This document shows positions 7,251-30,875 of a DNA stretch of 32,004 nt, one piece after another. Position 1 is the first letter of the stretch. The number at the start of each line of letters is the position of its first letter. The notes beneath the pieces are model-generated. The model ran no database searches and was not told the origin of the DNA. It worked only from the letters and a program-made list of their open reading frames with translations. Source of the stretch: Thermomicrobiaceae bacterium (lineage in GTDB: Bacteria > Chloroflexota > Chloroflexia > Thermomicrobiales > Thermomicrobiaceae); the NCBI GenBank assembly GCA_014874455.1, contig JADBJL010000003.1, positions 1 through 32,004 on the forward strand. Reading direction: 5' to 3'. The position numbers were made by a program, and so were the translations under genes.

Positions 7251-7331
7251 CTCCGTCCGAGGGGCACGACGCCGCGTCGACCAGCGACTCGCGGTGGAAG
7301 CTGCATACTCGGTCAAAGGGAAGGAGAACTC

Positions 7332-8966
7332 ATGGCCTGGCCCAACCTGGGTCTCGCACACCGCCCGGCGGTGACTGGAGCACGCGGGGCCGTCGCCTCG
7401 GCGCACCCGCTGGCCTCCTTGGCCGGCCTCAGCATGCTCCAGCAGGGCGGCAACGCGATCGACGCCGCGGTGGCGATCGCGGCGACACTCAACGTCGTCG
7501 AGCCGTTCATGTCCGGGGCCGGCGGGATCGGCTACATGGTCATCACCACGCCCGGAGCACCGGCGCCGGTCGTGCTCGACTACACCGGCCGGGCGCCGGC
7601 CGCCGCCACGCCCGATGCCTTCGCTGAGGAGGGGAGCAAGGACGACGGCATCCGCTCGCCGCTCGTGCCCGGCGCGGTCGCGGGCTGGCTGGCGGCGCTC
7701 GAGCGCTATGGCTCGCTTGATCGGGCGGCCGTCTTCGCCCCCGCGATCTACTACGCCGAGCACGGCTTCCCGATGACCATCAAGGGCCACTGGTTCTTCA
7801 CCCAGTCAGTCGAGCGGCTCCGGCGCTGGGAGACCTCGAGCCGGGCCTACCTGCACGGCGGCGAGGCGCCCAGGCCAGGCGCGATCCTGCGCCAGCCGGA
7901 TCTGGCGCGCACGTTCCGGCTCATCGTCGAGGGTGGGGCCGAGGTCTTCTACCAGGGGCCGATCGGCGCCGAGATCGCCCGCTTCTCGCAGGCCCACGGC
8001 GGCCTGCTCACCGAGGCCGACCTCGCGACCTACGAGCCGGCCTGGCTGGAGCCGATCTTCACCGACTACCGGGGCTATCGAATCTTCTGCCCACCGCCGC
8101 CCTGCAGCGGGATCCAGTACCTGATCACGCTGAACATCCTGGAGGGCTTCGACCTGGCGGCCATGGGGCAGGGATCTGCCGACCATATCCACTACCTGGC
8201 CGAGGCGATGAAGCTCGCCGTCGCCGACCGCACTACCTACGCCCCAGCACCGAACCCGCCGGTCGCCGGGCTCCTCTCCAAAGAGTACGCCGCCCGCCGA
8301 CGCAGGCTGATCGACCCGCAGCGGGCCGGCTACAGCGGCGGCGAGCGCTTTACGTCGAAAAAGCACCCCCTGGAGATCCTGCCCGGCAGCCCCGAGTCGA
8401 TCCTGCGCGAGAGCACGACCCACTTCGTCGCCATCGACGCGGCCGGAAACGCGGTCGCCTGCACCCAGACGCTGGGTGGGGCCTTCGGCTGCGGGATCGT
8501 CCACGGAAACACCGGGCTGGCACTCAACAACTTCGCGCACTGGTTCGACCTCGACCCCGCAAGCCCCAACGTGATCGCGCCCAACAAGAAGGTGGAGATG
8601 TGCCTCTCGCCTTCGCAAGTCTGGCGAGACGGTCGGCTCTTCCTGATGGTCGGCACCCCGGGTTCGTTCGGCATCATGGAGACCACGCCGCAGATGATCA
8701 TCAACGTGCTCGACCACGGCTTCAGCATCCAGGCCGCGATCGAGGCGCCGCGCTTCCGCACGCTGACCGGCACGGAGCTCGCCATCGAGAACCGGATCGA
8801 GCCGGCAGTGGTCGAGGAGCTGCGCCGCCGCGGGCACGACGTCCAGCTCCTCGAGCCCTGGACGCCCTTCGTCGGCGGCGGTCAGGGGATCCTGGTCGAC
8901 CTGGAGACGGGAGCGTTCTTCGCCGGGGCCGACCCGCGCCGTGACGGCTACGCGCTGGCGTTTTGA
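7332..8966 (+). CDS. ggt: Gamma-glutamyltransferase (Ntn hydrolase), putatively cytosolic
   Basis: ATG at 7332 follows AAGGGAAGGAG. The 544-residue precursor would self-cleave before Thr362 in E-S-T-T-H-F-V-A-I-D, the family's N-terminal nucleophile. This leaves a roughly 361-residue large and a 183-residue small subunit. The N-terminal region has the expected G-A-V-A-S-A-H-P-L-A-S and M-L-Q-Q-G-G-N-A-I-D-A-A-V-A elements; the late oxyanion/substrate loop reads G-T-P-G-S-F-G where many members have a G-G. GGT hydrolyses or transfers the gamma-glutamyl group of glutathione and related peptides. No signal peptide is visible, unlike classic periplasmic or secreted GGT, so substrate is probably imported first, which fits the downstream ABC importer. 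The next gene starts 35 bases after the stop. Confidence 0.93.
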   Translation: MAWPNLGLAHRPAVTGARGAVASAHPLASLAGLSMLQQGGNAIDAAVAIAATLNVVEPFMSGAGGIGYMVITTPGAPAPVVLDYTGRAPAAATPDAFAEEGSKDDGIRSPLVPGAVAGWLAALERYGSLDRAAVFAPAIYYAEHGFPMTIKGHWFFTQSVERLRRWETSSRAYLHGGEAPRPGAILRQPDLARTFRLIVEGGAEVFYQGPIGAEIARFSQAHGGLLTEADLATYEPAWLEPIFTDYRGYRIFCPPPPCSGIQYLITLNILEGFDLAAMGQGSADHIHYLAEAMKLAVADRTTYAPAPNPPVAGLLSKEYAARRRRLIDPQRAGYSGGERFTSKKHPLEILPGSPESILRESTTHFVAIDAAGNAVACTQTLGGAFGCGIVHGNTGLALNNFAHWFDLDPASPNVIAPNKKVEMCLSPSQVWRDGRLFLMVGTPGSFGIMETTPQMIINVLDHGFSIQAAIEAPRFRTLTGTELAIENRIEPAVVEELRRRGHDVQLLEPWTPFVGGGQGILVDLETGAFFAGADPRRDGYALAF

Positions 8967-9001
8967 GGAGTGTGTTGTCTGGAGCAGCAGAGGAGGGAGT
9001 C

Positions 9002-10057
9002 ATGGCACAGCGAACCGCGCCGGTCATCAGTCGAGAAGAGCTGCTCGAGCGAGTCAACCGGCTGCCGCGCGTCCCCTTTGCCCACCTGCCGACCCCGCTG
9101 GAGGAGATGCCCAGGCTCCGCGAGGCCCTCGGCCCGCGGGCGCCCCGCCTCCTGGTCAAGCGCGATGACCTGACCGGCTTCGCGCTGGGCGGCAACAAGG
9201 TGCGCCACCTGGAGTACCGGCTGGCCGACATCCGGGCACAGGGAGCCGATACGATCATCGTGGCCAACGTCGCGCAGTCGAACCACGCCCGGCTGCACGC
9301 GGCGCTGGCCGCCCGTTTCGGGCTGACGACCTACATCCTGAAGATCCCCAGCCACAAGGACACGCCGGTGAACGGCAACCTCTTGCTCGACCACATCGTG
9401 GGCGCGCGGATCGTCGAGGCCTCCAGCGCCGACCCAGCGGTGGTCGACCGGGAGCTCGACGAGCTGGCAGCCCGGCTGCAGGCCGAGGGGCGCACCGTCT
9501 ACAACGTGCCCAAGAACCCCGCCTGCAAGTCGGACGGCAGCATCGCCTACCTGGCCGCTGCGGTCGAGCTGCTGGAACAGCTCGACGAGCGGGGCCTGCG
9601 GGCCGACCACCTCTTCCTGGCTGCCGGCACGTCCTCGGGAGGGCTGGCGCTGGCCGGCAAGCTCCTCGGCGAGTCGTACCGGGTACACGCGGTGAGCGTC
9701 GGCGGGAGCCGTAAGCAGGTGGAGACACTGATCCTCGGCGCTGCCAACGGAGCCGCGGAGCGGCTGGGGCTGGATGCCCGGCTGGAGCCGGAGGACATCA
9801 CCGTCCACGACGAGTACGTCGGCGAGCGCTACGGCGTGCCGACACCGGCTTGCCTGGAGGCGATCCGGCTGGCTGGCCGCACCGAGGGGCTGATCCTCGA
9901 CCCGGTCTACACCGCCAAGGCGTTCTCGGCGCTGATCGACCAGGTACGGCGGGGAGCCATCGGCCCGGACGAGACGGTCGTGTTCGTCCACACCGGCGGC
10001 ATCCCGATCACCTTCGCCTACAGCGAGGAGATCCTAGCCGGCCTGGCCAGTGCCTGA
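9002..10057 (+). CDS. D-cysteine desulfhydrase / ACC deaminase family PLP enzyme
   Basis: Start: ATG at 9002 behind GAGGAGGGAG; a TTG extension back to 8963 would overlap ggt and is not needed. The protein is 351 residues, a fold-type II PLP enzyme. The cofactor lysine is Lys66 in L-G-G-N-K-V-R-H-L, preceded by K-R-D-D-L-T-G-F-A, and the substrate loop is V-A-Q-S-N-H-A-R. A late F-V-H-T-G-G-I-P element is characteristic of the ACC deaminase/D-cysteine desulfhydrase branch. D-cysteine desulfhydrase makes pyruvate, ammonia and H2S; ACC deaminase makes 2-oxobutyrate and ammonia. Adjacency to ggt favours a cysteine-type substrate, since GGT acting on glutathione-like peptides would yield cysteine-containing products, but that is inference. 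Confidence 0.87.
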   Translation: MAQRTAPVISREELLERVNRLPRVPFAHLPTPLEEMPRLREALGPRAPRLLVKRDDLTGFALGGNKVRHLEYRLADIRAQGADTIIVANVAQSNHARLHAALAARFGLTTYILKIPSHKDTPVNGNLLLDHIVGARIVEASSADPAVVDRELDELAARLQAEGRTVYNVPKNPACKSDGSIAYLAAAVELLEQLDERGLRADHLFLAAGTSSGGLALAGKLLGESYRVHAVSVGGSRKQVETLILGAANGAAERLGLDARLEPEDITVHDEYVGERYGVPTPACLEAIRLAGRTEGLILDPVYTAKAFSALIDQVRRGAIGPDETVVFVHTGGIPITFAYSEEILAGLASA

Positions 10058-14393: not shown

Positions 14394-16106
14394 CTACCTC
14401 GTGTCCGCGTGCGTCGGCAGTTCCGGGTGCGGGTAGCCGTCCCAGGTGGCACCGAAGAGGTGCCAGCGGAAGGCCTCGTTCAGCGCACGCAGCGTGGCCT
14501 CGATGTTCTCGCGGATCGGCTGGCCCTCCGGTGTGAACCAGGGGCCGACCGGCTCCGGCGGCAGCACCTGATCGGCATGGGTCGGCACATCGCCGTGCGG
14601 GTTGCCGTCCCAGGAGATTCCCCAGAAGTGCCAGCGGAACGCCTCCACGAGGCTGCGCAGCGTGGCCTCGGTCGCCGCCTGGTCGAAGCCGGTATCGCTC
14701 ACCCACACCGGCACTGGCTCACCAGGGACGATGGTCTCGGCGTGGGTCGGCATGTCGCCCCGGTGGTCGACGCCGTCCCAGCTCATGCCGTAGAGGTGCC
14801 AGCGGAAGGCCTCGACCAGGGCCCGCAGGGTGGCGTTGATCCGCTCGGCCTTGGGCCGCCCGCTCCCGTCGAACCAGACGGACTCGCCAGGGTCGTCGCT
14901 CACCACGAAGTCCCAGAGCACGCGAAGCGTGTCGCCCTGCTGGTCGCGAGCGACGGCCTCCGCGGTGTAGAGCCCGGGGCCGAGCGCGATACCTGTTGCC
15001 AGCTCACCTGACTGTACGGCGAACTCCTGCCCCGCCACCCGGACGACCAGCTCGACGACCGGCGTGTCCGAGACCGCCACCGCGCGGACTGTCACCAAGC
15101 CCGGCGCCACGCGGGCGTAGCGCGCTGGCTCGAGTGCCGTGAAGACCGGCTGGGGGCCCGAGCCCGGCGGCTGCCCGGGCTGTGCAGACCCCTCGCGCGC
15201 GCCCCCGATGGTGCAGCCGGCCTCGTCGCAAACGTCCTCGAGGAACACCAGCGCGTCCTCATCGATGCGCCGGGCAACGTTGGCCGACGCGCGCTCGTGC
15301 GATATCACACCAACGAGAACCGGATCGGATGAGCGCCAGACTGGCCCACCGCTCATCCCCTTGGTCGCGTCGGCGTCCATGAACAGGAAGTCATTGGTAA
15401 CCCGGAGGAACCCGGTACCGCTCGCCCACCACTGCGTGCTTTCCGGCTTGTCGCCAGGGTAGCCAGCGACCGTATAGGAGAAACCGGGATCCGACAGCGT
15501 CTCGGTCGAGAGCGCCGCCACCGGGAGCCAGCCCGCCTGCTCGCCGAGCGGGGATGCGAGTACGACCACCCCGAGATCGAACTCGGGATCACCGAGCTCC
15601 ACCCATCCCTCGGGCACGAACGCATCGGTTGCGAACTCGTAGCCGTAGGGCCAGGTCTCGCCGTCAGCGCCCGGCACGGCCGCGAGCTCGTCGACCCATC
15701 CGCCGTTCTCGTGGTCGTACAGGCAGTGGGCGGCCGTCAGCACGACGTCCGGCCCGATCAGGGCGCCGCTACAGGTGATCCAGAGATCGTCCACGAGATG
15801 CCCTGCCACCATGACCACGGCAGAGGCAGGGAAGGACGTCGTCGGCGACTGCCGGACGCGGTCATCGGGAGGAAAGACACGCTGGTAGCCGGCCGCCGGT
15901 TCCACCGCGCTCCGCCGGTGAGGCGCCACCCCTACCCGGTTCGCAGGACGATGAGAGACCGGGGTGAAGCCGGCCTCCGGCTTGCCCGACGCGGCCACCG
16001 GCCCTCCGCCAGCAGGGCTGCCGGTCGAGGCGAGCACACCGATGAGGAGCACGAGCGTGATCAGCCCCCAGGCGAGTCGCCGGCTCATCGCAGTCGTCTG
16101 TTGCAC
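14394..16106 (-). CDS. Secreted trypsin-like (V8/glutamyl endopeptidase-like) serine protease with three C-terminal repeats
   Basis: Start: GTG at 16106, chosen because AGAGGAG lies 6 bases upstream (570 residues); the ATG at 16088 lacks such a site and an upstream ATG at 16187 is unsupported. A hydrophobic segment (about 13-30) is a signal peptide or anchor. The protease domain, about 85-300, has the chymotrypsin-fold triad: His127 in T-A-A-H-C, Asp177 in F-D-L-G-V-V and Ser252 in K-G-M-S-G-G-P. A Gly/Pro linker and a beta-rich domain (about 320-405) follow. The C-terminus holds three repeats, about 410-459, 468-513 and 523-569, with the core A-T-L-R-x-L-x-E-A-F-R-W-H-x-x-G-x-x-W-D-G and a closing P-T-H-A. 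Their role is unknown; cell-wall or substrate attachment is a guess. Confidence 0.88.
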   Translation of the reverse strand: MQQTTAMSRRLAWGLITLVLLIGVLASTGSPAGGGPVAASGKPEAGFTPVSHRPANRVGVAPHRRSAVEPAAGYQRVFPPDDRVRQSPTTSFPASAVVMVAGHLVDDLWITCSGALIGPDVVLTAAHCLYDHENGGWVDELAAVPGADGETWPYGYEFATDAFVPEGWVELGDPEFDLGVVVLASPLGEQAGWLPVAALSTETLSDPGFSYTVAGYPGDKPESTQWWASGTGFLRVTNDFLFMDADATKGMSGGPVWRSSDPVLVGVISHERASANVARRIDEDALVFLEDVCDEAGCTIGGAREGSAQPGQPPGSGPQPVFTALEPARYARVAPGLVTVRAVAVSDTPVVELVVRVAGQEFAVQSGELATGIALGPGLYTAEAVARDQQGDTLRVLWDFVVSDDPGESVWFDGSGRPKAERINATLRALVEAFRWHLYGMSWDGVDHRGDMPTHAETIVPGEPVPVWVSDTGFDQAATEATLRSLVEAFRWHFWGISWDGNPHGDVPTHADQVLPPEPVGPWFTPEGQPIRENIEATLRALNEAFRWHLFGATWDGYPHPELPTHADTR

Positions 16107-16719
16107 GGGTGACTCCTCTCGCGTCCCAGACCGGCCACGGGCTTCGCCGGGTGCCGGTTCCCCTTCCTCGGCGTGGCGCGACGCCACTCTTTCGTATAGT
16201 ATCGGCCGCTCGGTGGGAAGACACTGGTTCCCGCCACATCGAAGTGAGCGCAGCGGTTCGTGCGCTCAGCAGGTCTTGATTCACTCCATTCGCAGCATGG
16301 AACCCAGGCGTCTTCCCTCAAGGGCTGAAGGGCTCGCGCCCCGGCGCGCCGACGACATGGACGCGGCAGACGCGCCTGCCCTGAACCATACCGCGGTAAT
16401 CACCGGCGCGATCGAGCGCGAGATCGCGGTGCGGCGCGCTCACCGCAGTCAGATTGGCGCCCGGGTGCCAGAGGTCGAGCGCATCGTCAGGTCGAGAGCC
16501 ACCGAGCGCGGAGCTGAGCACGGAGGGGTTCCGCCGCGAAATCCTGCCTGTCGGCCCTCGCTGAGACAGACAAGCCGGACAGTACCCAGGCCGCTATGCG
16601 ACAATTGTCGTGCCTGGCTGGCGGCTCGTCGCTCGAGCATCCCCGATACTACACGCCGGTATGGGCAGCCGCATCACGAGAGAGGAAGATGACGCCTGAG
16701 GAGCTGAGCGAGGACGACC
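16107..16719. other. Divergent intergenic region, protease / rnc operon
   Basis: About 610 bases with no convincing gene; open frames here have no ribosome site and read as low-complexity Arg/Ala/Pro. It must hold promoters for both directions. Two similar stretches may be -10 regions: CCGATACTATACG on the minus strand (complement of 16193-16205 or so) and CCGATACTACACG on the plus strand (16643-16655). A perfect 12-base palindrome CGACAATTGTCG lies near 16597-16608 and could be an operator. No clear -35 boxes are visible. Confidence 0.35.
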
Positions 16720-16727
16720 GTGACTGA
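16689..16727 (+). CDS. Possible 12-codon leader peptide overlapping the next start codon
   Basis: ATG at 16689 directly follows a strong ribosome site (GAGAGGAAG) and encodes M-T-P-E-E-L-S-E-D-D-R-D. Its TGA stop at 16725-16727 lies just past the GTG start (16720) of the next gene, in another frame. Translational coupling is possible, because the GTG itself has only a weak site. It could equally be a chance micro-ORF. Confidence 0.3.
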   Translation: MTPEELSEDDRD

Positions 16728-17157
16728 CGAGGTGCAGCGGTTCCTGCACTATATCGCCGAGCACTATACCGGTCGCGAGGAAGCCAAGGACATCGAGCGC
16801 AGCGCTGCCGCTGAGACGGCTGACGAGATCGTGGCGGGCCAGCGCCGGGTGATGCGCAAGGAGCGGGCGCTGGCCGACCGGCTGGCTCGTCCTTTCCAGC
16901 GCGGCTTGCGCCGGGCGTACGCAGCCCACCGCGCTGGCGGCGATGCCATCTCGCTGGACGACCGAGACCCTGAGGAGAACCAGATGGCCGAGGCGCTCAT
17001 CCATTTTTTGGTTGGCCCGGGCTTGGCACGCTCGATGACTCGGGAGACCGAGCCGATGCACTACACGTATATCATCACCATCAACTGGGAAAAGCTTGCA
17101 GTCCTGGCGCACGAGGCGAACATTGACCTCGAGGCGCTGCTCAAGTCGGCGACGTGA
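16720..17157 (+). CDS. Conserved-looking protein of unknown function in the rnc-prs operon
   Basis: A 145-residue cytosolic protein from GTG 16720; an in-frame stop at 16690 rules out an earlier start. No signal peptide or membrane segment is visible. The N-terminal half is highly charged and probably helical (R-E-E-A-K-D-I-E-R-S, R-R-V-M-R-K-E-R-A-L). The C-terminal half has a patterned segment, H-Y-T-Y-I-I-T-I-N-W-E-K-L, then a short helix. I recognise no family or active site. It ends 6 bases before the RNase III ATG, so the two are almost certainly co-transcribed and probably translationally coupled. This suggests a housekeeping or RNA-related role, without proof. Coding confidence comes from the tight operon spacing and normal codon use. 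Confidence 0.75.
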   Translation: MTDEVQRFLHYIAEHYTGREEAKDIERSAAAETADEIVAGQRRVMRKERALADRLARPFQRGLRRAYAAHRAGGDAISLDDRDPEENQMAEALIHFLVGPGLARSMTRETEPMHYTYIITINWEKLAVLAHEANIDLEALLKSAT

Positions 17158-23575: not shown

Positions 23576-23614
23576 GCTTGTCTCGCACGGAGCCTAGAGG
23601 TGGACTCGCCATGC
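23576..23614 (+). repeat. Right copy of the imperfect direct repeat flanking the oxidase segment
   Basis: This 39-base stretch has the blocks GCTTGTCT, GAGCCT and GACTCGCCATGC, matching the left copy at 18914-18951 in order and orientation (26 of the bases lie in identical blocks). It lies just outside the luxR promoter, between the island and the penicillin-binding protein gene. Confidence 0.6.
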
Positions 23615-23830
23615 AGTGCGAAAGGGTGGCCTGTATCCTCGCTGTGGGCTGTGATTTGCACGACAGGCCCCCTGTCCTTGACGTTTCATCCGGCCGCGTG
23701 CCAGCATTGTGCCGAACGGTCACCCGCTGCGAGCAGGTGGGGACGAAGTCGCGCCGCCTCTGCTGTGCCTCGACCGAGGACTGCTGTGCTCCCGGGATCG
23801 GAGCGGCTCAGAGACAGGAGACGCCTGCCG

Positions 23831-26005
23831 GTGCCAGGGTATCGCTCTCCCTATTCCCAGCGGCCGCCGCGACGTAACACGGGCTCCACCCTGCTCATCG
23901 GCACACTGGTGCTGGCCGTCCTCTCTGTCGGCTTCTTCCTGCTCGCCGACCGTCTCGGCCAGGCTGGCCAGCCGACCGCCGAGCCCGGGGTAACCACCGG
24001 CGCCTCCGCGACCGCTACCCCGACCCCGAGCTACCGGACGCCGCGCGACGTCGTCGACGCCTTCGTCGAGCGCTGGATGCGCGGCGACTACGCTGGCATG
24101 TACGAGCTGCTCTCCGAAGCCTCGAAGGCGCACATCAGCAAGGAAGACTTCGTTGCCCGCTACGAGGGGATCGCCCAGGAGATGGGCCAGCGCTCGATCC
24201 AGGTAACGGTCGGCGAAGCCCCCGCGCAAGTGACTCGTCTCCCCATCCATGTCGTCCGCCAGACCGACCGGGTGGGCACACTGACTGAAGACAACGCCAT
24301 CCCGGTAGTGGAAGAGGACGGGGAGTACCGGATCGACTGGACACCCTCGGTGATCGTCGCCGAGCTGTCCGATGGGTTCGTCCGCTGGATCCCGTCGGTT
24401 CCCCAGCGCGGCCGCATCCTCGACCGCAAGGGCCGGCCGCTGGCCCACCTGGGCACGGTGAACAAGGTGGGCGTGATCCCCGGTCAGATCCAGGACGAGC
24501 AGGCCCTGCTCGACAAGCTGAGCCAGCTCCTCCGATTGCCCCCGGAAACGATCAAGCAGCGCTACCAGGGCGGCCAGCCGGACTGGTTCATGCCCATCAA
24601 GAGCTTGCCCGACCCGCTCGACCCGGCCCTGCTCCAGGAACTAGCCGGCATCCCCGGCGTGGTCGTACGCCAGTGGCCGGAGCGGGTCTATCCAGCCGGG
24701 CCAGCCGCGGCACACCTGACCGGCTACCTGACCGAGGTCACTGGCGACGAGCTGCAGCAGCTCGCCGAGGGCGGCTACGAGCCGGGCGACCGGATCGGCC
24801 GCGCGGGGATCGAGGCCTGGGGTGAGCAGTACCTGCGCGGCAAGCGCGGCGGCCGGCTGGTGATCGTTGGCCCCGACGGCCGGGAGCGCAAGGTGCTGGC
24901 CGAAGTGCCCAGCCAGCCGGCAGCCGATGTCGTGACCACTATCGACCTCGACCTCCAGATGGCCGCCTACCAGGCACTCGGCGACCGCACCGGGAGTATC
25001 GTCGTCATCGACCCCAACAGCGGCGCGATCCTGGCCATGGTCAGCAACCCGAGCTTCGACCCCAACCAGTTCATCCTCGGCCTGAGCCAGGAGGACTGGA
25101 CTGCGCTCAACGACGAGCAGCGGCGGCCACTGCTGAACCGGGCGACCCAGGTCGGCTACCCGATCGGCTCGACCTTTAAGGTGGTCACCATGGCCGCCGG
25201 GATGCAGTACCTCGGGCTGACGGCACAGTCCGCCTTCGACTGTCCAGCGACCTTCTCTCTGCCGGGGAGCCCGCAGGTCTGGCGCGACTGGAGCCCACAC
25301 GGGCAGGGGAGACTGAGCCTGCACAACGCGCTGGTACAGTCCTGCAACACGGTCTTCTTCCAGATCGGGGCTGAGCTGGATGCCCGCGAGCCGAACCTCC
25401 TGCCCCAGATGGCCCGCGCCTTCGGCTTCGGCTCCGAGACCGGGCTTCCGGAGCTGCCGGAAGTGGCAGGGATCGTGCCCGACCCGGAGTGGAAGCTCCG
25501 CACGCACGGCGACTACTGGGCTCGCGGCGACGCGGTCAACCTCGCGATCGGCCAGGGCTTCTTCCTGGCCACGCCGCTCCAGGTCGTCGACGCGTACGCG
25601 GCGCTGGCCAACGGTGGCACCCTGTGGCAGCCGTACCTGGTGCAGGAGGTGGTGGCGATCGACGGCACCAAGCTCTACGCTGCCCAGCCCAAGCCGCGCG
25701 GCACGCTCCCCATCTCCCCGGAGATCCAGGGAGCGATCCGGGCGGCCCTGCGCGATGTGACCGCTGCTCCCAACGGCACCGCCTTCGCCCCCTTCCAGGG
25801 CGTGGCCCAGCCGGTGGCCGGCAAGACGGGCACCGCTGAGTCGGGCCAGGAGCAGCCGCACGCCTGGTTCACCGCCTTCAGCCCGGTCGACGGCGCCCGG
25901 CTGGCACTGGTGGTGATGGTCGAGCACGGTGGCGAGGGTTCGCGCACCGCCGCGCCGATCGCCCGCCAGGTCATCGACGCCGCCGTCCAGGCCGGGATCC
26001 CATAG
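23831..26005 (+). CDS. Class B penicillin-binding protein (transpeptidase) with NTF2-like (MecA-N) domain
   Basis: Start: GTG at 23831 with CAGGAG ten bases upstream (724 residues); this puts the single N-terminal TM helix (about 19-40) right after a short basic cytosolic tail, as usual. A Thr/Pro linker is followed by an NTF2-like domain, about 70-180 (V-V-D-A-F-V-E-R-W-M-R-G-D-Y-A-G-M-Y), as found in MecA/PBP2a and related proteins. The dimerisation domain opens Q-R-G-R-I-L-D-R-K-G. The transpeptidase domain has the three penicillin-binding motifs: Ser447-Thr-Phe-Lys450, Ser504-Cys-Asn506 and Lys665-Thr-Gly. It cross-links peptidoglycan outside the membrane. The NTF2-like domain does not by itself mean beta-lactam resistance. 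Monocistronic, downstream of the oxidase island. Confidence 0.93.
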   Translation: MPGYRSPYSQRPPRRNTGSTLLIGTLVLAVLSVGFFLLADRLGQAGQPTAEPGVTTGASATATPTPSYRTPRDVVDAFVERWMRGDYAGMYELLSEASKAHISKEDFVARYEGIAQEMGQRSIQVTVGEAPAQVTRLPIHVVRQTDRVGTLTEDNAIPVVEEDGEYRIDWTPSVIVAELSDGFVRWIPSVPQRGRILDRKGRPLAHLGTVNKVGVIPGQIQDEQALLDKLSQLLRLPPETIKQRYQGGQPDWFMPIKSLPDPLDPALLQELAGIPGVVVRQWPERVYPAGPAAAHLTGYLTEVTGDELQQLAEGGYEPGDRIGRAGIEAWGEQYLRGKRGGRLVIVGPDGRERKVLAEVPSQPAADVVTTIDLDLQMAAYQALGDRTGSIVVIDPNSGAILAMVSNPSFDPNQFILGLSQEDWTALNDEQRRPLLNRATQVGYPIGSTFKVVTMAAGMQYLGLTAQSAFDCPATFSLPGSPQVWRDWSPHGQGRLSLHNALVQSCNTVFFQIGAELDAREPNLLPQMARAFGFGSETGLPELPEVAGIVPDPEWKLRTHGDYWARGDAVNLAIGQGFFLATPLQVVDAYAALANGGTLWQPYLVQEVVAIDGTKLYAAQPKPRGTLPISPEIQGAIRAALRDVTAAPNGTAFAPFQGVAQPVAGKTGTAESGQEQPHAWFTAFSPVDGARLALVVMVEHGGEGSRTAAPIARQVIDAAVQAGIP

Positions 26006-28999: not shown

Positions 29000-29779
29000 A
29001 TGGGAGTCGCTGCGTTCCTTTTCCTGGTCTCACTGGGTATCGGCATCCTCTGTGCGATCGGCTACCGGAGAGCGCAGCACAAGCTCAGCCTCGTACAGCT
29101 CGTTCCGACCTCGACGATCGCCGAATTGGCCGACCGCTTGCCGGGCGAGCTCGTCGAGCTGAAGGGACTGGTTCGCTCTTCCGCGCCGCTGACGAGCGAG
29201 ATCGCTGGGCTCCCCTGCGTGTATTATCGATCGGTGACGACTCGGGAGTACGAGGAGACGAGGCGCACCAGCAAGGGAGGCATCTCGCGGCAGCGGGGCT
29301 CCGAGGTCGTTTCGCAGAACGAGCAGCGTGCCCCCTTCGAGCTGGAAGACGCCACCGGCCGGGTCATGGTCGACCCGTTCGAGGCGGACATCGACGCCCG
29401 GAAGCTCGTCGACCGGTTCGAACCGACCGCTGAGGGAGCCGGTGCGGTGACGATCGGGGGGATAACGTTGGGCGCTGGAACGAGTCGCACGCTCGGGTAC
29501 CGGAAGGTGGAGCACGCCGTCCTGGTCGACCACCCGGCGTACGTCCTGGGCGTGCTGCAAGACGACGGGAGCATCGGGCCGCCGCCCGAGGGGAGCCGGC
29601 TGCGCCGCTACCTCATCAGCTCTCGCTCGGAAGAGGAGCTCGCGAACGACCTGCGCCAGCGGTCGCACGTCTTGCTCGCAGGCGCGGCCGTCAGCTTCCT
29701 GGTCGCTGCCGGCGGCCTCGTCTTCCTCCTGGCCCACGCGCTCGCATCGACCATCGGCACTGCAGGAGGCCCACCATGA
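29000..29779 (+). CDS. Membrane protein with GIDE (E3 ubiquitin ligase-like) domain
   Basis: A 259-residue protein with an N-terminal TM helix (about 3-22) and a C-terminal one (about 226-250). Between them lies a domain resembling the GIDE domain of MULAN-type E3 ligases: V-E-L-K-G-L-V-R-S, P-C-V-Y-Y-R-S-V-T-T-R-E-Y, P-F-E-L-E-D-A-T-G-R-V-M-V-D-P-F-E-A, and a Y-R-K-V-E-H-A-V-L-V block before G-V-L-Q-D-D. Bacterial members lack the RING finger, so this is not a ubiquitin ligase; its function is unknown, and LemA-type neighbours, frequent elsewhere, are absent here. The last codons overlap the start of the redoxin-like gene (ATGA), so the two are translationally coupled and may act together at the membrane. 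Confidence 0.82.
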   Translation: MGVAAFLFLVSLGIGILCAIGYRRAQHKLSLVQLVPTSTIAELADRLPGELVELKGLVRSSAPLTSEIAGLPCVYYRSVTTREYEETRRTSKGGISRQRGSEVVSQNEQRAPFELEDATGRVMVDPFEADIDARKLVDRFEPTAEGAGAVTIGGITLGAGTSRTLGYRKVEHAVLVDHPAYVLGVLQDDGSIGPPPEGSRLRRYLISSRSEEELANDLRQRSHVLLAGAAVSFLVAAGGLVFLLAHALASTIGTAGGPP

Positions 29780-30678: not shown

Positions 30679-30774
30679 TGGCGGGAAGGGAGGGATTCGA
30701 ACCCTCGGGGGCCGGTTTACGCCAGCCCCAATCGCTTAGCAGGCGACCCCTTTCGACCTCTCAGGCACCTTCCC
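30679..30774 (-). tRNA. tRNA-Ser (anticodon GCT), CCA encoded
   Basis: Read on the minus strand, the acceptor GGGAAGG pairs with CCTTCCC, followed by discriminator G and an encoded CCA (30679-30681). The anticodon stem GTCGC/GCGAT closes the loop CTGCTAA, giving GCT, which reads AGC/AGU. A long variable arm (GGGGCTGG with CCGGCCCC) is the class II mark of serine tRNAs. T arm: GAGGG-TTCGAAT-CCCTC. Confidence 0.95.
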
Positions 30775-30791
30775 GTGCGGAGCTGCTGCGG

Positions 30792-30875
30792 CGGAGAGGG
30801 AGGGATTCGAACCCCCGGGGCTCGTCGCCCTGCTGTTTTCAAGACAGCCGCCTTCAGCCACTCGGCCACCTCTCC
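30792..30875 (-). tRNA. tRNA-Ser (anticodon TGA), CCA not encoded
   Basis: Read on the minus strand, acceptor GGAGAGG pairs with CCTCTCC, then discriminator G, followed by CCG rather than CCA. The anticodon stem GCTGT/ACAGC encloses CTTGAAA, so the anticodon is TGA (UCN serine codons). A variable arm GGGC-GACGA-GCCC confirms class II. T loop TTCGAAT is present. It lies 17 bases from the GCT tRNA; the two are probably one transcript, with this gene first. Confidence 0.95.

Follow-up and report, generated by a model that had tools for sequence, protein, structure and literature searches.

Within the window, by which we mean the whole analysed stretch of 32,004 nucleotides, a repeat-bearing serine protease is encoded on the minus strand by an open reading frame that extends over positions 14394-16187 and comprises 597 aa when read from the GTG at 16187. 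The likely start is the ATG at 16088, which corresponds to residue 34 and is the first ATG in frame; position 16106, where the initial annotation had placed the start, is an in-frame GTG of the same reading frame. As judged by eye from the sequence, the N-terminal segment that opens at this ATG (about residues 34-68, 15984-16088, minus strand) resembles a signal peptide, which supports at that level the secretion that had been proposed.

The trypsin-like catalytic domain (residues 113-302, 15282-15851, minus strand) was identified by both Pfam (Trypsin, 4e-13; Trypsin_2, 5.5e-11) and a match to PDB sequences, the best of which was the glutamyl endopeptidase 1p3c (E 2.9e-15), and the earlier protease assignment is thus upheld. 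The His-Asp-Ser triad of the window protein was assigned by motif and position; the residues concerned, H154, D204 and S279, are the same in all 13 aligned trypsin-type proteins. With a trypsin-like domain and this triad, the protein shows the sequence features of S1B, and on these features it is a glutamyl-endopeptidase-like (S1B) serine protease with putative cleavage after Glu. The catalytic domain is what it has in common with the V8-like glutamyl endopeptidases of S1B, whereas its tail, consisting of an Ig-like domain and a triplet of repeats, sets it apart; the glutamyl endopeptidase and V8 protease chains matched in the PDB are 215-274 aa long, in comparison with the 597 aa of the window open reading frame.

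Directly N-terminal of the first repeat lies a predicted PKD/Ig-like domain (residues 344-431, 14895-15158, minus strand), which has seven strands in the AF2 model, as expected for an Ig fold. Both Foldseek and VIA matched it to many Ig, PKD and FnIII structures, the best VIA match being 9kvu (Z 11.7, rmsd 2.3, 88 residues aligned). The Pfam sequence search gave no Ig match in the window protein itself, and Big_7 exceeded the Pfam cut-off only in the relatives L067 and L062.

The rest of the protein is occupied by three repeats, all on the minus strand: repeat 1 (residues 435-484, 14736-14885), repeat 2 (residues 491-540, 14568-14717) and repeat 3 (residues 547-596, 14400-14549), the last of which ends one residue short of the stop. 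The motif EAFRWH occurs at residues 459, 515 and 571, a spacing of exactly 56, and 22 alignment columns are the same across all three repeats. Pairwise alignment scores were 142, 154 and 138, whereas shuffled sequences (2000 for each pair) averaged 21.6-23.6 and reached at most 49-53. The triplicated C-terminal repeat noticed in the initial annotation is therefore confirmed; the length of 46-50 residues given there fits the conserved core, and the real period is 56. The repeats follow the pattern W-F..G...ATLRSLVEAFRWH...SWDG..H..PTH.

In comparison with 12 trypsin-type relatives, mean identity was 72% for the repeats, 54% for the catalytic domain and 50% for the Ig domain. The repeats are thus the best-conserved part of the protein, so that constraint on the tail is stronger than on the enzyme. 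Among 83 repeats from the window's family, which were gathered by profile and are consequently biased towards the consensus, the positions that never vary are one Leu, Phe, Trp and His in the helix, the Trp in SWDG, and Pro and His in PTHA. Two residues of EAFR, Glu and Arg, are kept in 80 of the 83; the count is 81 for Asp and Gly in WDG, 78 for a Gly near the repeat start, and 77 for the middle (third) His and for the Thr in PTH. In the amidase gene L065, which belongs to another family of the same class and is described below, all three repeats retain Leu, the His in the helix and the Trp in SWDG, and the residues missing from single repeats are Phe, the Trp in the helix, Pro or the His in PTHA.

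Such conservation of histidines (the helix His and the PTHA His in 83/83 family repeats, the third His in 77/83) could also be expected if the repeats were metal-binding or purely structural stabilisers of secreted thermophile proteins, and both T. roseum and S. thermophilus are described as thermophiles (PMC2615216, PMC3035262). However, in L065 one repeat is without the third His and one without the PTHA His, and a simple stabiliser would not explain why the copies are always three in number; we consider this explanation quite improbable.

AF2 modelling was performed with natural sequences of the Ig domain plus triplet (22 sequences; pLDDT 92.2, pTM 0.87) and of the triplet alone (21 sequences; pLDDT 92.5, pTM 0.87). 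In the models each repeat is formed by one 20-residue helix and ordered loops, in agreement with the helical character proposed earlier for ATLRxLxEAFRWH, and, to judge by the pTM of 0.87, the three predicted repeat units may pack against one another in a defined arrangement.

The repeats had been described as not assignable to a known domain, and no clear match to a described family emerged from the profile searches. Pfam and NCBIfam, searched with the whole protein and with the joined repeats, gave no convincing match for the repeats, the joined repeats reaching SAM_LFY at only E 0.31. With 18 single repeats, the Pfam and NCBIfam matches listed concerned one or two of the 18, at E 0.014 or worse. 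PHROGs likewise gave no convincing match for the repeats, and the best match of the repeat profile to PDB sequences (entry FD15, E 0.11) was chance-like. With the E limit set at 10, the SLH profile (PF00395) matched neither the window protein nor the joined repeats; with a limit of 1, it matched none of the 18 repeats taken singly. In a Foldseek search of the PDB with the triplet model the best E was 1.9, with nothing at 0.001 or better, and none of the 35 chains aligned by VIA reached Z 2. This lack of a match among the PDB structures listed is not proof of a new fold, nor does it exclude the three-prong spindle of SLH domains. The triplet model gave no match in BFVD (best E 3.2). A mobile or viral origin was also considered and discarded: there was no tblastn match in plasmids or phages at E 0.01, none of 47 pattern stretches in viral contigs was confirmed, and the BFVD result was the one just given. 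A search of the open-licence PMC literature by title and start of abstract, which covers few subscription papers, retrieved no paper describing the repeat, and EAFRWH was found in 0 papers.

A class-wide search detected the repeat (E 0.001 or better) in 15 of 158 genomes: 14 belong to the window's family, which is represented by 21 genomes, and one to another family. The records of the family carriers are named Thermomicrobium, Sphaerobacter and Thermalbibacter. In the genome of the window itself, where a search of other proteins had been suggested, six repeats are found in two proteins, the window protease and one more on contig C31. An order-wide profile search found nothing outside the window's family at E 0.001, and weak order-level matches (E 0.005 or worse) were dropped. 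In a sample of the phylum, 10 of 400 genomes matched at E 0.01; nine of the matches were strong and all in the window's family, and the tenth (E 0.0082) is regarded as chance. The 61 genomes around the carrier of L065 included 11 positive ones; judging by contig positions, the ten other than the carrier had already been counted. A pattern-based scan of a collection of 84,980 species yielded 20 confirmed loci, the titles of which name Thermalbibacter, Thermomicrobium, Sphaerobacter, Thermomicrobiaceae MAGs, the bacteria HR27 and HR28, and one Chloroflexi MAG. The repeat was found in none of the five genomes of genus g4 of the window's family, indicating that the domain is not essential to the wall of the family, and in neither of the incomplete family genomes G002 and G020. 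Taken together, the repeat represents a real, lineage-restricted domain family with no described match in the libraries searched.

A gene-by-gene recount with the profile gave 86 repeats in 29 genes, with exactly three in 28 of them. The sole exception is a gene with two repeats (L015, the same as L064), which reflects either recombination between repeats or assembly collapse; its second repeat looks by eye like a hybrid of repeats 2 and 3 (L064:4753-6324). Counted per genome, the repeats number 3, 6 or 9 in all but one of the 15 positive genomes, the exception being G018 with 5. Genes encoding a protease with the triplet lie side by side as a tandem pair in each of two genomes of genus g2 (L045:5052-8904 and L048:5739-9675).

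The carriers are of several types. Trypsin-type proteases account for 14 of the 29 genes; ten genes, of a split type, encode an unassigned N-terminal domain and have repeats 1 and 2 separated by a second Ig domain; three encode a related N-terminal domain, with three repeats in a row; and L014 (the same as L062) consists of Ig-like domains and the triplet. Between the proteases and these last four non-proteases, identity is 65-67% for repeats that occupy the same slot and 51-58% for those that do not, which would fit the inheritance of a single old triplet as a unit. Comparison with the ten split-type proteins shows no slot pattern (same slot 52-59%, different slots 53-60%), so that their repeats may be rearranged.

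The window's family contributes 28 of these genes, 14 for proteases and 14 for other proteins, and in all 28 the last repeat match lies 0-4 residues from the protein end. This position is what would be expected of a C-terminal secretion or sorting signal read by an export machine; however, the triplet of L065 is internal, with 226 residues of amidase C-terminal of it, and the carriers inspected by eye have N-terminal signal-like segments, so we regard such a function as very unlikely.

The gene L065 encodes, in one uninterrupted frame, an N-acetylmuramoyl-L-alanine amidase in which the triplet precedes the Amidase_3 domain (Pfam 2.3e-37). Its genome is a MAG that is 51% complete, and the contig coverage is given as 2.8. 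No repeat was located within 18 kb of any of the 13 amidase matches from the window's family, which argues that the amidase fusion is not a design of the family itself. Of all the clues to function this fusion is the strongest, and it was found once, in a single gene of a single MAG. Among the ligands put forward in the initial annotation, it favours the cell wall, and glycan is compatible with the same fusion; for metal the evidence points neither way.

The triplet could alternatively be a module that binds a carbohydrate or protein substrate and steers enzymes to something outside the cell rather than to its own wall. Its conserved aromatic and charged residues would suit such a role, as would the structural matches of the PKD/Ig-like partner, which include modules of cellulases, collagenases and glycosidases. 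On the other hand, Pfam detected no enzyme domain in L067, L059 and L062, the three scanned among the 14 non-protease carriers of the family, and the sole further enzyme carrying the triplet is the peptidoglycan amidase; a substrate-binding module therefore seems unlikely to us, though less so than a stabiliser or a sorting signal.

Among the loci compared, the neighbours of the window gene recur only in L053 and L054. A small open reading frame without a Pfam match lies directly before the RNase III gene in the window (16720-17157, plus strand), and open reading frames 87-94% alike to it are present in L053 and L054. Elsewhere in the window we observed a gene for a penicillin-binding protein with an NTF2-like MecA_N domain (23600-26005, plus strand), a match to the GIDE (E3 ubiquitin ligase) family (29000-29779, plus strand; Pfam 6e-34) and two adjoining tRNA-Ser genes with anticodons GCT and TGA (30679-30875, minus strand). 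A similar lipoprotein-like gene is located 3' of the non-protease triplet gene in L033, L066, L067, L036, L046, L059 and L063 and was not seen beside L068-L072; it follows the triplet gene in genera g1, g2 and g3 (for instance L067:6434-7108 and L059:6718-7455). The L067 copy has no Pfam match, and the product may be a partner of the surface protein. In L067 it is followed (7259-9083) by an ECF sigma factor and by a protein without a Pfam match that we read as anti-sigma-like, and open reading frames similar to both also adjoin the L036 gene.

The reading that we prefer, with a probability of roughly 0.6, is that the triplet serves in cell-envelope targeting, as a domain by which secreted proteins are held on the wall. 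It is supported by the triplication in the sequence, the presence of the triplet on unrelated protein types, the near-strict number of three repeats per gene, the higher conservation of the repeats than of the catalytic domain, the amidase fusion and the confidently predicted fold. We infer that after export the three repeats, each with one long helix and an ordered loop in the models, would pack into a single compact unit, which would bind non-covalently a component of the wall, either peptidoglycan or an attached polymer, through a putative ligand site built from the conserved Glu, Arg, Trp, His and Asp residues. The protease would thereby be retained at the cell surface, the Ig-like domain acting as a spacer.

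The walls described for the host genera are unusual and rich in protein, which also speaks for this reading. Thermomicrobium roseum is described as a Gram-negative without genes for outer-membrane proteins, the wall of which is low in peptidoglycan, consists predominantly of protein and has a regular outermost layer (PMC2615216). Sphaerobacter thermophilus is reported to be Gram-positive, with A3beta murein and an unusually protein-rich wall (PMC3035262). As one is Gram-negative and the other Gram-positive, one common ligand is not a given. A bolder version of the wall-targeting interpretation, in which the three repeats form an obligate closed unit with a new fold that evolved independently of SLH and anchors to the protein-dominated Thermomicrobiaceae wall, with the Glu, Arg, Trp, His and Asp residues forming three equivalent ligand pockets, is offered tentatively, as somewhat less probable than not. 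The repeats constitute a domain that can be named and searched, so that it and its carriers could be annotated from now on, and they offer a handle on how a lineage with odd walls may hold its surface proteins; for surface display, a thermophile anchor some 160 residues long could be of use as well.

Two known anchoring systems are suitable for comparison. Sortases are present in 20 of the 21 family genomes, which indicates that surface attachment is in use in the family. In contrast to sortase substrates, the window protein ends in PTHADTR and has no sorting motif, hydrophobic stretch or basic tail, so that its attachment would be non-covalent. SLH domains are described as repeats of approximately 55 residues, often three, at the end of secreted proteins or enzymes; a tandem SLH triplet forms a pseudotrimer with a three-prong spindle and binds wall polysaccharide, and a single SLH domain is present on the amidase LysBT1, which trimerises (PMC12285257). 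SLH was found in only one of the 21 family genomes, and the idea that the repeat replaces SLH in this lineage was set aside as unsupported, SLH being rare order-wide (4 of 61 genomes). The window repeats differ from SLH in having no SLH profile match, for which reason the triplet is not filed as SLH; the PDB structures listed for the repeat model included no fold match. They resemble it in being three tandem copies, with a period of 56 as compared with approximately 55, and both kinds of domain are found on an amidase (the triplet on L065, SLH on LysBT1; PMC12285257). By analogy, and without implying kinship with SLH, the triplet would work like a triplicated SLH domain, that is, as a new domain family with a known kind of job, for which an anchoring role is probable.
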